Part shown: piece after piece, positions 9,301-59,066 of the stretch
Position numbering within the stretch: the first letter of the stretch is position 1
How the letters are laid out: each line of letters begins with the position of its first letter
Assembly: GCA_024516035.1 (NCBI GenBank)
Contig: CM044958.1
Coordinates: forward strand, 2,535,566 to 2,599,565
Length of the DNA stretch: 64,000 bases
Source: Bactericera cockerelli
Lineage: Eukaryota > Arthropoda > Insecta > Hemiptera > Triozidae
Reading direction: 5' to 3'
Made by a program: the position numbers and the translations under genes
The notes under the pieces: generated by a model
The model's database searches: none
What the model saw: the letters and a program-made list of their open reading frames with translations, nothing else
What the model was told of the DNA's origin: nothing

Positions 9301-12300
9301 ACCATGGCCGAGTGGGTAGCGCGGCAGGCTTGCAGGCTCGGTGACCTGGGTTCGAATCCCATCATGGTCAGATGTTTTGCTTTGTTCTTTAGATGTTACG
9401 TAGTTAACGTAGTCCACTTATTTATAGTTATTAGAGAAAAATAAAAGTAGCTGCTTGAATGTAAGGGGCATCGAGAGGTGGAATAATGGGAAATATAAGA
9501 AACTCAGGCGGCACCCCCTGTCCAAACAAACTCTCAACGTTTACTCTGTCCAATCAAACTATATGATCTGTCCAATCAAAACCATCCTCAATCTCACCCT
9601 AAACAATGTACATTTCTCTCTAGTCCCCAGTTTCTCTATATCCGATCAAAAATATTCCAAGTCTAATCAAAATTACATAATTGTTTCCACACTCACTCCA
9701 TCAAGTAATAATTTACCCTGTTCAATCAAAACTCCTTCCTAAATCACCCATTCTATCTAAGCGTTACCTCATTATAGTTAATTCCGTCCAACGCAGGCTT
9801 CTCATCATCAGACATCTCACTTCCTGAGATGTCAACACCTCTACGGATTTTACAAAGGTTGTCTGTCCAATCAAAACTCTCCCCACACTGCCCTATCCAA
9901 TCAATACTACTCCTCTCAGACTCATCCTGGGCTCTCAAACCTATTCCTTGACCAATCAAAACTCCCCGTCCAATCAAAACTCTCTCTTCACTCACCAGTT
10001 CTATCCAAGCGCCACTTCATCTCGTTATTCAGCGCCCACACAGGCGTCTCATCGCCAGGCGTCTCATTTGCTGGAATACCTCCACGTTACTGACTTTAGA
10101 AAGTTTTTCCGTCCAATCAAAACTCTCCCAACACTTCCCTTCTCAGATCAATACGCCTCAGAGACTCACCTAATGAACAATCTCCGATCAAAAAATTCCT
10201 TGTCCATCGAATACCTCCTTGTCAAATCAGAATCATTAACCGTCCAATCAAAATCTACCCTGTCCAGTCCGTTATTCAGCGCCCACACAGGCGTCTCATC
10301 GCCAGGCGTCTCATTTGCTGGAATACCTCCACGTTACTGACTTTAGAAAGTTTTTCCGTCCAATCAAAACTCTCCCAACACTTCCCTTCTCAGATCAATA
10401 CGCCTCAGAGACTCACCTAATGAACAATCTCCGATCAAAAAATTCCTTGTCCATCGAATACCTCCTTGTCAAATCAGAATCATTAACCGTCCAATCAAAA
10501 TCTACCCTGTCCAGTCAAAACTCCGTCTATACTTCCCTTATCAGATCAATACTGCTCACAAACTCACCTTGTAAACTCAAAAATATACATTATCCGATTT
10601 AAAAAATCAAGTCTAGTCAAATAACCCATTATCGAATCTGAATTATTAATTGTCCAATCAAAATTTACCCTGTCCAATAGTGTCCAATCAAAACTCTTCC
10701 CTCGCACTCACCAGTTCTGTCTAAGCGCCACCTCATTCTCGTTATTCCCCGCCCACACCGCGATGCAGGGATGATTCATCAGGCGTCTCACTTGCTGGGC
10801 TACCTCCAGCGCTACGGAGTTGAGGAAGTCACCGGTTGTTGGATAGGTGGCACAGGCAAACATGAAATCCTGCCAGACTAGGATGCCGTAGCGATCGCAG
10901 AGCTGAAATTAGAATTGAACCGGTGACATGATTATTATTAATAATAATAATACTCTTTAGCGAAAGGTAAGCACCAGGCGAGGTTAATGCTCAAACCATT
11001 TTCTACCAACTAACCCTAAGAGTCTTGTTATTATTTGGTCTCAAACACAAATTATTGAGGAAAAATTCAAGCACTGGGTGGGATTCAAACCGATGAATCA
11101 CTACGCTACCTGGATTACCAGACCAGACATTTTTTTTCTTTTTGTAAGATCCCCCATCCACCCTCTTGAGTTTTATTATTATGTGGTCACAAATTCAAAT
11201 GAATTAGGAAAAATTCATGCACTGGGTGGAATTCGAACCTACGAGTCCCTATGCTACCTGGATTACCAGACTAGCGCGTTCACCAATTGACTTTTTTATT
11301 ATTATAAACTGGTTGGGGTCCTATAAGGAGAGCCCCAATTCTCACAGACCTATATTAGATCTATTGTAACCTGCACTTGACTTTTTTATTATTAGGACTA
11401 TTATTAGCACTGGGTGGAATTCGAACCAACGGGTCCCTACGATACCTGGATTACCAGACTAGCGCGTTAACCACTGACTTACGTACATCATCTACAGTTT
11501 GTTGGTCACAATAGATCTAATTAGGTCACAGTGTTAATTGTAAGGGTTTCACTGAAAACCCTGCATCCAGGTCAGATAATAAATACGTACATCATAAAAC
11601 ATATCGGATTCATACACTCCCCCTCCCCACACTCGGAGCATATTCATGTGGGCCTGGGCGGCTGACGATAGCAACCGGTTTACAGTGGCGTAGTCGGCAG
11701 ACTTCTCGGGCAGAATGTGGGCGGGGATATAGTTGGAACCTTTGGCGAAGATGGGCACGTTGTTGACCAAGAAGTAGAAACTGAGCCCTGCAGAACACGT
11801 TGCTATTATATAATATAAAAAGTTTTTTTAAGTTATCATATATTTGTGTTAATCATTTTCGTGATATCACAACTACTCAAACTCGCTTTACTAAATCTGC
11901 GTTCTGCGCTGAAACTGGGACTTGAACCACCGACTTCCTGGTTGCAAGTCCCGCCGCCTGATCGATCAAGCTATTGAGGTTGGTTTGGAATTATAGTATA
12001 ATAATAATATCACCTTATTTATACTGCCCGATCAGGACTATTAAGACCCATTATTCCAGCAGTAAGCCCAAGACGTATTATTACGTGCTAAAAATCACAA
12101 TTGCGAGGATAACATGTCATGTCCCGGCTAGGTTTCGAACCCGTGACCTCTGGATTACCAGACAGCCGCCTTTACCAAAAGCTGCCGGGGCACTGAGCTT
12201 TGAAATTGAGTTTCAAAATCTATCTACCAGTGTCCCGTCGATGGCGCATTGAATGCTAAGGTTCTCGTAGGATCACCAAGCAACTTCCAGCGAGGTGAAG

Positions 12301-56706: not shown

Positions 56707-59066
56707 ATGGATAACAAGAAAACCAAGTATTTGTTTGAACATCCAGAATGTTGGAAAGAGGAAACCCGGATGAATGCTCTGTTTGCCCCATTCAGAGATC
56801 GTGAAGTGAATCCCATTTTCTATGATGTCAAAATGAAGTTCTGGAAAGGGTTGATCCAAGAAGCCTGTAGCAATGTTGGTTATTTCACTGTTCAAGACTT
56901 GAATACAGCTTTCACCAGAAATAGACGCATTCCCTATTGTACAGCTAATGTTGTGAAAGATCTGATCATGTAAGTTCCAAGCTCCTACTAGGTTCTAAAC
57001 TAACATTACAACTGATTGAAACACCACACCTCCTATTAATATTTTTTTAAGCCCCTTAACACTTGGACAAACGGGTGTACCACCGGTGGTACACGCATGT
57101 ACTACTCCTGTGAATAGCCTAAACATCACCAGTCCCATGGGAGAACTTACTAAAAACATGCCGGTCGTCTATGTGTTAATGAAAAATGCCAAGAATTCCA
57201 AGTCACTCCTGATGTTGAGCAGAGATACTTCAAAACTTTTTATGCTAGAGAGAACTCTTATCATTTAAGCTCAATGTTGATTTTAACTAAGTTAAAAATA
57301 AATAAATACCCTTCATTCACCAGCTAGACTTAGTGGAGTTAGATTTTCAGCAGTAACATATTGACTGAGAACAAATTTCAATCTTGAAAAAGGTCTAATT
57401 CATTTGGTGTGTTTACAAACTACCCTGTCAATATAATAATGTACTAAGAGAATGCTGTAGGCACAAGCACTACCCTTGATCAAGTTGTTTTATTAAAAAC
57501 AAAACTTGATCTAGTTTTATTTACAGTTCATATTCCTATCCCCCCCTTCCTTAGATTCAGTACAATAAGGAGTGCTGTCATTGAGCAATTGTTTAATATC
57601 TTTTCTTTTACAGAAATGGTGATGTGAGAACAAAGGATGAATTCCTGTCATCTACTCCCGGACAAAGCTGGAAAAGATGGGCTGTCCAGACGGTTGTTGT
57701 AAATCCACTCTCATGGTCCTTCAGTAAACTCAAACAAACCATGGGTTATGAACAAAACCATGTGGAGGTGTTAGATAATAGGGACTATGTTCATATACCT
57801 GCCATTAAGGTAAATATTATTTATACCCAAGTTACAATTGATAACTAAACATTGTTATTTTTTGAACATAAGATTACATTGAAAAAACTCATATACCTGC
57901 CATCAAGGTAAATATTATTTATACCCAAGTTACAATCAATATCTAAACATTGTTATTTTTAAACATAAGATTACATTGAAAAAACGGATATTAACGGATA
58001 GGGAATGGATATTATAGCCTATAACATTTAGAACCAACAAGCTGAACATATTTAGAGTAGGACAAGCCTTTAAATGGTGGCAATGACTTTTGAATATTGA
58101 TTGACTCAGTGATTTGATAATGATTAATATTTGATAGACAGTTTTACTTTTGAAAACAGGTTTTTTTTAAACAACATAACCATCCAAATAGTCATCAATT
58201 TTCTAATTTACTATGTTTTACACTTGCAGGATAAATCAGAAAGTCTACTCTCCATAGCCAATGAATCTCACGTGTGTGGGAAAGTTTTGGCAGTTGAAGA
58301 TCTTAGACAAAAAATTGCGAAGTCTGATGACCCCACAACATTTAACTTGTGCATCCACTGGCTCTATATCACTGGTATGGCAGTCACCATGACTGATCCC
58401 AATGATCCCAAAACACAACTAGTCAAATTAGCAGAACTAGGAGACAAAGCAAAGCCAATGTCTGAACAAGAACTTGCTCTCTACTCTCTCCAGTTCAATG
58501 AAACCAAACTCTCAAAGAGTATTGAGAAATTAGAGTCTGAAAAAGAAGACCTTGTTGTTGAAGCTAAAGCTTTCTTAAAGAAAGGCATGCGACAAAGTGC
58601 AAAGAACTGTTTGAGGAAGAAGAAAGATCTTGAAAAACGGATAGACAAGCAAGCAGCATCACTAGAAAATATTCAGTGTCTGTTGGATAATGTTAGAGAT
58701 GCTGAGAGCAACAACAGGGTTGTAGAGTCCTACAAGTATGGATTAGCAGCTCTGAAGTCTACATTCCAGGAGGCTGGCACAACAGCAGACAATGTAGCTG
58801 ACACAATGGATGAAGTCAAAGACATGCTAGAGCAACATGATGAGATCAAGGAGAGTATAGGAAGCCCTTTGTCACCTTCTGTTGATGACATTGAACTAGA
58901 AGATGAACTGGCAGAACTTCTTGCTAACAATGTGCCATCCACACCTCTTAATAAACTATTGGATAACTTCCCAGTGCCACCGAGTGAATCTCCTACAAGT
59001 CCCAGCAAAGAGGATCTGTCTACTCCCAGTAAATTGCAGAAAGTTAGAAAACTGGAGGCCCTCTAG
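56707..59066 (+). CDS. CHMP7: Charged multivesicular body protein 7
   Basis: ESCRT-II/III hybrid that starts ESCRT-III assembly at the reforming nuclear envelope (with LEM2) and acts in endosomal sorting. Three exons: 56707-56969, 57614-57809, 58230-59066, in phase, total 431 aa, close to the usual length of about 450. Residues 1-150 form the winged-helix part (HPECWKEETRMNALFAPFRDREVNP; GYFTVQDLNTAF; PGQSWKRWAVQTVV). The C-terminal half, from about residue 230, is the Snf7-type coiled coil (ARKFLKKG-like AKAFLKKGMRQSAKNCLRKKKDLEKR is seen, as are repeated acidic helices and DNVADTMDEVKDMLEQHDEI). An acidic helix (IELEDELAELLA) follows, then a Ser/Pro tail. The third exon holds about 65% of the protein. 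Intron 1 contains a TTAA-flanked MITE and intron 2 begins with a tandem duplication of the exon 2 edge. Polyadenylation signals lie 370 and 700 bp downstream of the stop. Confidence 0.95.
57060..57175. mobile_element. piggyBac-type MITE in CHMP7 intron 1
   Basis: 116 bp flanked by TTAA at both ends (57056-57059, 57176-57179), with inverted ends cacttggac/cacatagac. It contains the perfect 20-bp palindrome gtgtaccaccggtggtacac. Confidence 0.75.
57792..57985 (+). repeat. 98-bp tandem duplication of the CHMP7 exon 2 edge and donor
   Basis: Two copies. The first holds the real exon end and donor (57809/57810). The second repeats the last 18 coding bases, a donor at 57908 and about 80 bp of intron. 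The second has ATC for ATT in the Ile codon and a few changes in the intron part, so it is older than the UTP25 arrays. Confidence 0.93.

Follow-up and report, generated by a model that had tools for sequence, protein, structure and literature searches.

The 64,000 nucleotides examined here, termed the window below, come from the 565-Mb assembly of the psyllid Bactericera cockerelli (G000:C4:2535566-2599565) and carry tandem arrays at the exon edges of the genes UTP25, MANBA, and CHMP7. These arrays are very probably 'mirage' minisatellites, that is, exon-edge duplications which have expanded outward and which are over-represented at exon edges. In the present samples, arrays are several-fold to about tenfold commoner at exon edges than in ordinary intron DNA. 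The units of the edge arrays comprise exon bases together with the splice site or stop codon, or adjoin it, with the copies on the non-coding side. Mirages themselves are known from amphioxus genes, while the insect host, the high frequency, the apparent donor bias, and the rapid turnover are new.

Four genes were rebuilt in the window from GT-AG edges and open frames, namely UTP25, MANBA, CHMP7, and a UIMC1-like gene, and the exons of the first three are as follows.

34382..47752, plus strand: UTP25 gene, 10 exons (34382-34820, 35893-36212, 36917-37314, 37743-37875, 38585-38774, 40616-40827, 42731-42994, 45001-45207, 46131-46307, 47582-47752)
3324..19733, minus strand: MANBA gene, first 11 exons (19604-19733, 18540-18698, 17073-17227, 16421-16611, 14092-14353, 13147-13318, 11591-11787, 10712-10902, 7030-7220, 5864-6138, 3324-3471)
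56707..59066, plus strand: CHMP7 gene, 3 exons (56707-56969, 57614-57809, 58230-59066)

Residues 300-836 of UTP25 from the window share 87-88% identity with Cacopsylla melanoneura and Diaphorina citri, the two top matches, and the protein can be aligned end to end with its psyllid orthologues. By Pfam, CHMP7 has Snf7 and MANBA has glycosyl hydrolase 2 domains; the 3′ end of MANBA was not found within the window. The edges in the window amount to 60, including 53 splice sites, four starts, and three stops.

Arrays were listed with Tandem Repeats Finder (TRF) at a score of at least 100 and merged by hand, resulting in 16 arrays in the window. On coordinates alone, six of these are no more than 20 bp from an exon edge, and the number rises to eight after inspection of the sequence, by which the arrays of UTP25 exon 7 (341 bp away by TRF) and MANBA exon 8 (195 bp) were counted as edge-linked. 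The edge-linked arrays, identified by TRF unless otherwise stated, are given below.

17804..18538, minus strand: 21-bp x 35 array, 1 bp from the MANBA exon 2 donor (exon 18540-18698)
9719..10712, minus strand: degenerate copies of the MANBA exon 8 3′ end and donor in intron 8, at 9719-9857, 9968-10104, and 10270-10351 (BLASTN)
19506..19585, minus strand: degenerate 24-bp microsatellite-like array, 18 bp inside the intron from the MANBA exon 1 donor
39989..40653, plus strand: 73-bp x 9 array at the UTP25 exon 6 acceptor, with a unit of about 37 intron nt and 36 exon nt
42959..44635, plus strand: 44-bp array at the UTP25 exon 7 donor, with a unit of 36 exon nt and 8 intron nt (TRF and sequence)
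46323..46984, plus strand: 16-bp x 41 array, beginning 15 bp inside the intron past the UTP25 exon 9 donor (46307)
47716..50144, plus strand: 47-bp x ~50 array of the last UTP25 codons, the stop codon (47750-47752), and 3′ flank
57791..57985, plus strand: 98-bp x 2 duplication of the CHMP7 exon 2 donor (edge 57809; 19 exon nt)

All seven arrays named in an earlier note on this DNA were thus recovered by TRF and sequence, and the observation on which that note rested is confirmed. Its UTP25 exon 9 array exists as well, but with a period of 16 rather than 17 and a start only 15 bp into the intron, and its count of seven edge arrays among 11 was inaccurate, since TRF gives 16 and the array at the MANBA exon 1 donor (19506-19585) had been overlooked. 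At MANBA exon 2, GTAAGTTGACC is found in the first unit and ATAAGTTGACC in later units. Comparison of MANBA exon 8 with intron 8 by BLASTN matched three intron places at 68.9-77.7% identity, and the same intron contains a TRF pair of 247 bp x 2 at 10023-10516, the copies of which are 100% identical. Nine acceptors are present in the UTP25 exon 6 array (40029-40616), and the full protein results from the last of them. The exon 7 array starts with the exonic copy and continues, past an insert of some 320 bp with (TTGA)n at its end, into 29.5 further copies; it contains 30 donor motifs in total. A genome-wide search with the 44-bp unit, the sole unit searched, detected two places only, its own locus and a second copy of the region described below. 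For this unit, presence at many unrelated loci, which would mark a dispersed satellite, was thus not observed.

The expectation under chance was obtained from a null in which a one-unit seed is placed at random, the units having length. Within 20 bp of an edge, 1.29 arrays would be expected when the whole window is used and 2.13 when placement is genic, which leads to probabilities of 8e-4 or 0.011 for at least six arrays, 9e-5 or 2e-3 for at least seven, and 7e-6 or 3e-4 for at least eight (whole window or genic, respectively). The enrichment put forward earlier therefore holds, although the 3% of the window taken there as the null was too small because units have length. A test independent of TRF was also carried out, in which 60-base edge queries were aligned to the adjacent 1.5 kb on the intron side and compared with 1500 control positions in non-coding DNA outside the edge-linked arrays. 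Nine of the 60 edges reached p<=0.05 and five reached p<=0.01, and the counts were the same with every array taken out of the controls. Three of the nine edges that passed with array-free controls are not arrays, namely that of UTP25 exon 5 and those of UIMC1-like exon 3 and MANBA exon 10, where the match is weak. Since the window was picked post hoc, the independent samples weigh more.

Such samples were drawn from the 77 exon matches of the myosin family PF00063 and the 34 matches of the cullin family PF00888 in the genome. The first myosin set (L029-L035, 24 matches) was picked partly with knowledge of long open frames and is accordingly biased; reading of its sequences disclosed ten edge arrays, of which those of L032 at 5329 and L034 at 18 merely abut the acceptor. 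Locus L035 alone has three edge arrays (91-bp and 77-bp at donors, 84-bp at an acceptor) and L029 has two donor arrays, while no array at an edge was found in L030, L031, or L033. At L034 (640-4200), there are about ten copies of a 39-nt exon end and donor of myosin, some of which are much decayed, so that young and old mirages stand side by side. The second myosin set (L036-L055) comprises 20 of the 53 remaining matches with 300 bp on either side, taken by locus, although open-frame lengths were visible and L049 derives from the gene region of L034. Edge-spanning arrays occur at five of these 20 exons, at the donor in L037, L043, and L045 and at the acceptor in L038 and L049, and four more arrays with a score of at least 100 stop short of any edge (L036, L047, a second one in L049, and L055). 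In the cullin set (5 of the 34 matches, 200 bp on either side), three of the five exons have donor arrays (L060, L063, and L064), the long open frame of the L060 match having been visible beforehand. A cullin coding segment (profile 373-420) was also noticed in at least three tandem copies about 0.6 kb apart at G000:C9:12646517-12648868, with fewer in the neighbour C9:12669401-12670933, which is probably a larger-unit mirage or an exon duplication.

In the less selected sample formed by the second myosin set and the cullin set, 8 of 25 exons (32%, interval 15-54%), or 8 of 50 exon sides, bear an edge-spanning array. The background rate was taken from 204 kb of non-coding DNA with its arrays collapsed, where 36 non-edge arrays occur; at 0.0137 per edge, it gives 0.69 expected against the eight observed (P=7e-7), and P is still 2e-4 when the rate is doubled to 0.03. 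When, as the strictest null, the 12 arrays were reshuffled within their own 300- or 200-bp flanks, 3.0 would be expected (P=0.002), and for myosin alone five of nine arrays are at edges vs 2.0 expected (P=0.025).

The genome as a whole was tested for three donor words CAGGTGAG spaced 20-50 bases apart, in comparison with the mirrored word GAGTGGAC. The donor word forms 4452 tandem triplets (2043+2409) and the mirrored word 126 (40+86). The first listed donor triplets fall into 7 clusters in 15.7 Mb of C1, while about 100 of the 126 mirrored triplets fall into 27 clusters in at least 451 Mb; the array density is thus 0.45 vs 0.06 per Mb, a ratio of 7.5 (2.7-17.5, p=1e-4). The isolated words are about equally common, with 16 donor and 23 mirrored words in 335 kb of fetched sequence. 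A further word, AAGGTAAG, gives 3706 triplets vs 1039 for its control, which is a purine-rich word. Spanning arrays listed by hand in the window, the second copy of the region, and the myosin and cullin exons are found at 17 donors vs 6 acceptors (p=0.035), and the ratio in the less selected sample is 6:2 (p=0.29).

Several points weigh against an excess of array births at exon edges. In the alignment test, the excess vanishes (1 of 60) when the interiors of edge-linked arrays are kept among the controls, because these arrays occupy much of the introns. The exon sample covers two gene families with several exons per gene, open-frame lengths were visible when it was taken, the ends of domain matches do not always coincide with exon edges, and exons belonging to one gene are not fully independent. 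The mirrored word sits, as judged by eye, in a common short interspersed element (SINE) and is a non-ideal control, the match counts are swollen by a few large arrays, and the array ratio rests on just the 7 donor clusters in 15.7 Mb. The acceptor word TTTTCAGG displayed no genome-wide excess (154 vs 140), and the view that all edges behave alike is therefore unsupported, though AT-rich DNA often contains this word by chance, which makes the acceptor test weak. In a weight-matrix splice test of low power, an unusually strong donor was lacking in 12 of the 14 array units from eight random stretches of 10 kb. Finally, as the comparison of two copies of the region below reveals, non-edge arrays differ between copies too, and the second copy has some that are unlisted in the window, e.g., at its own positions 5165, 23917, 25216, 46670, 52103, and 66312 (TRF); births are therefore not confined to edges.

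The outcome for the random stretches would be expected if the pattern were owing to chance and ascertainment, a remarkable window having been picked after the fact, and both the choice of the window for looking odd and the P value under the strictest local null, which reaches only 0.002, point the same way. The pattern is nevertheless repeated in myosin and cullin exons and genome-wide, which makes chance very improbable as an explanation. The edge concentration described in the earlier note accordingly extends to other genes and to the genome. The cause that the note suggested, a process linked to replication or transcription at exon edges, would be one possibility. Instead of applying to every kind of edge, the bias may be confined to 5′ splice sites. 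A donor bias could also result if selection acted more strongly on duplicated acceptors than on duplicated donors, because splicing would reach the wrong copy first.

The turnover of the arrays can be followed in a second assembled copy of the region at C4:1385001-1465000, which lies in reverse orientation and holds most of MANBA-UTP25-CHMP7. The longer aligned pieces are mostly 87-97% identical to the window, and one stretch of 17.8 kb is 99.7% identical. This copy looks like an unpurged second haplotype that was scaffolded alongside, or else a segmental or inverted duplicate; several myosin genes are likewise paired, 0.1-1 Mb apart, on a reading of the profile matches. Copy number is unequal at four edges, amounting in the window and the second copy to 35 vs 11 for the 21-bp array, 50.5 vs 15.5 for the 47-bp array, 41 vs 24 for the 16-bp array, and 29.5 vs 27.3 for the 44-bp array, while the 73-bp array, which lies in the 99.7% stretch, has 9 copies in both. 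Three edge arrays exist on one copy only. The CHMP7 exon 2 duplication is twofold in the window and single in the second copy, with a microhomology of about 1 bp at the breakpoint by eye; the MANBA exon 8 copies had no BLASTN match in the corresponding intron of the second copy; and the UTP25 exon 9 acceptor, single in the window, is a 72-bp x 13.6 array in the second copy. Among paired myosin exons, both L037 and L056 have the array, L043 and L058 both have one in different forms, and the acceptor array of L038 is missing from its paired copy L057. By TRF, L059 lacks the donor array of its partner L045 and has a 155-bp x 2 acceptor array at the same exon.

These comparisons presuppose that the arrays are real. 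Errors of long-read assembly might in principle generate arrays, and the assembly appears to keep unpurged second copies of several regions, so copy numbers may be off. Errors would not target splice sites, however, the units carry many point variants, and several arrays are present in both copies, all of which renders an artefact highly unlikely.

It was further considered that births are even along the DNA and that edge arrays simply outlive others, deletions into the exon being lethal and the conserved copy reseeding the array. The old degenerate copies at MANBA exon 8 beside the 100% identical 247-bp pair are what reseeding predicts. Such sheltering also predicts older and more diverged edge arrays, but homogeneity is higher in the edge arrays (94% match; n=23, counting the biased set) than in the non-edge arrays (88%; n=40; p=0.035). 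Moreover, edge arrays occur on just one of two copies at CHMP7 exon 2, the UTP25 exon 9 acceptor, MANBA exon 8, L038, and L045/L059, and longer survival is on balance an unlikely cause of the excess. Edge arrays are also longer than non-edge arrays (399 vs 194 bp, p=0.001), and their period is divisible by 3 in 7 of 23 cases, as in untranslated DNA.

Base composition offers another route, in which GC-rich exons amid AT-rich introns duplicate more and in-exon duplications are purged, leaving those at the edges. Coding DNA in the window does have a GC content of 0.47 vs 0.36 for non-coding DNA, window exons with a GC content of at least 0.49 have edge arrays in 7 of 15 cases vs 1 of 15 for the others (p=0.035), and edge arrays as a class lie above the background GC (mean quantile 0.65). 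The relation is unrepeated in the 20 myosin exons (p=0.12), where arrayed exons have a lower GC content if anything, and the 36 non-edge arrays exhibit no GC preference (mean quantile 0.49). A GC-weighted null raises the window expectation merely from 2.0 to 2.5, and the donor word exceeds a mirror image of identical composition, so that composition is distinctly improbable as the source. The results on homogeneity, length, and GC favour a bias of birth or expansion at edges over survival or composition, since edge arrays are no older than the others and arrays away from edges are not rich in GC, without naming the process.

The probable course of events begins with a short tandem duplication that straddles an exon edge, after which extra copies grow into the intron or 3′ flank, presumably through unequal exchange or slippage, while selection keeps the single functional copy in place. 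The first duplication may arise in more than one way, and two features of UTP25 bear on this step.

46097..46167, plus strand: UTP25 exon 9 acceptor segment, flanked by the 8-bp direct repeat CTTCTTCC at 46097-46104 and 46160-46167
38767..38953, plus strand: UTP25 exon 5 donor repeat, an exact 21-bp direct repeat (38767 and 38933; 8 exon bases) around a SINE-like insert with a repeated body

The junction of the exon 9 array in the second copy is the product expected from pairing of the CTTCTTCC repeats, and this direct repeat is the likely seed of the array. Pairing of short direct repeats would therefore be one way; end joining with almost no homology, which CHMP7 suggests, may be another. 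The 21-bp repeat of UTP25 exon 5 is a probable target-site duplication, and at the myosin locus L059 (503-820) the donor sequence recurs once, 306 bp on, past a SINE-like insert. SINE target-site duplications are thus possible seeds of exon-edge arrays, although in both cases retroposition would have left a duplicated donor that is not yet an array.

The least certain step of this scheme is that the excess would stem from a raised rate of birth or expansion at edges, mainly 5′ splice sites, and not from longer survival. It is conceivable, though rather doubtful at present, that 5′ splice sites are mutational hotspots in the psyllid lineage, where a transcription- or splicing-linked process, or retroposons favouring these sites, starts the duplications; an example would be breakage, or a switch of polymerase, where exon and intron meet in nascent transcripts. 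If hotspots of this kind exist, a large share of exons would have a private array now or have had one recently, and gene copies would often differ at their edges.

As for splicing, the three upstream acceptors of UTP25 exon 6 that were tested (40029, 40102, and 40540) lead to a stop at residue 508-581 of 836, and the four later donors of exon 7 that were tested lead to truncation at residue 677 of 836. The inner sites tested thus truncate the protein, so the outermost copy should be used, and the decoy splice sites are presumably passed over in its favour, as judged from the reading frame.

Boundary-spanning tandem repeats termed mirages are described in passages of PMC3087553 for the amphioxus globin genes BflGb6/BflGb9 and for Adh3, with haplotype differences and apparently normal splicing, together with a model of intron gain from mirages, and passages of PMC3902484 add the lancelet genes PGBD5 and troponin C. 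According to these passages, amphioxus mirages affect donors and acceptors, with units of about 10-160 bp, many of which contain AG/GT signals. The psyllid arrays resemble them in that the repeats span boundaries (UTP25 exons 6 and 7, CHMP7 exon 2, MANBA exon 8, myosin, and cullin), 5′ and 3′ boundaries are both duplicated (17 donor, 6 acceptor), lengths are unstable between copies, whether the second copy is a haplotype or a duplicate, and the units carry AG/GT signals. The amphioxus cases were established gene by gene, with normal splicing backed by reverse transcription PCR, and mirages have so far come, in the passages at hand, from a handful of lancelet genes, whereas the psyllid arrays, described from genomic DNA, involve about one third of the sampled exons. 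Beyond those passages, the present data add an insect host, a high frequency over unrelated genes, a stop-codon case, an apparent donor bias, and presence or absence between copies.

Passages of PMC2812944 report minisatellite expansion over exon-intron boundaries in human genes within segmental duplications, which may form novel introns. That work looked among recent segmental duplicates, and the human repeats modify gene structure, while in the psyllid, use of the outermost site would leave the predicted protein as it is. In the intron gain from AGGT-containing exon DNA that is the subject of PMC4974935, splice signals are similarly added through local tandem duplication, and the psyllid arrays sit at introns of the gene models. 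Like variable-number tandem repeats and satellites borne by transposable elements, the psyllid arrays are tandem, homogenised, and copy-variable, but their units are derived from the local exon edge. No report of exon-edge arrays in psyllids or other insects was found among the open-access papers listed, judged by title and start of abstract and in part among the best matches (e.g., 10 of 387 and 15 of 32). The main text of the 2025 psyllid genome paper PMC12203342 does not use the words 'tandem', 'minisatellite', or 'satellite', and the passages seen of PMC6823432 and PMC4039745 contain no nuclear boundary-spanning tandem arrays. The genome opens to test the birthplaces of minisatellites, the choice of splicing among dozens of near-identical sites, and intron gain or sliding by boundary duplication. 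In psyllid assemblies, both gene prediction and the purging of haplotypes would probably suffer from such arrays.

The remaining gene of the window lies on the minus strand at 27507-33210 and comprises six exons encoding 373 aa with a CxxC...HxxxC zinc-finger-like motif. This product has no Pfam match and is tentatively called UIMC1/RAP80-like. No TRF array was found at the edges of the gene, and a weak second copy of the exon 3 donor lies about 230 bp off. The arrays of the window away from edges are:

1110-1632, 4332-4495, 4799-4978, 5449-5527, 12894-13047 (TC repeat), 15373-15468, 41086-41199, and 60395-60463: non-edge arrays (TRF)

Short arrays of one 13-bp unit, ATTTCGTTACATA, are found at unrelated sites, namely 41194-41236 and 60395-60463 of the window, L018 (5510-5578), and L033 (1752-1806); flanks are common to the two window sites, and the arrays are probably carried by a transposon. 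A likeness by eye of 13 of 14 bases between the units of MANBA exon 2 and UTP25 exon 7 was set aside as probably due to chance. Within one of the random 10-kb stretches, L027, units of 33 bp and 69 bp with strong donor-like sites were noticed at 7243-7392 and 8607-10000, and an unmodelled gene may have exons there. On the minus strand of the window (61504-62784), a 426-aa open frame looks by eye like a fragment of reverse transcriptase from a long interspersed element. A dispersed 38-bp unit beginning with TGCTGGTCTACTCCCTGTTTATAG was noticed close to an exon of two unrelated genes, each time as a pair, at 126-200 of L047 and at 4576-4653 of the second copy.

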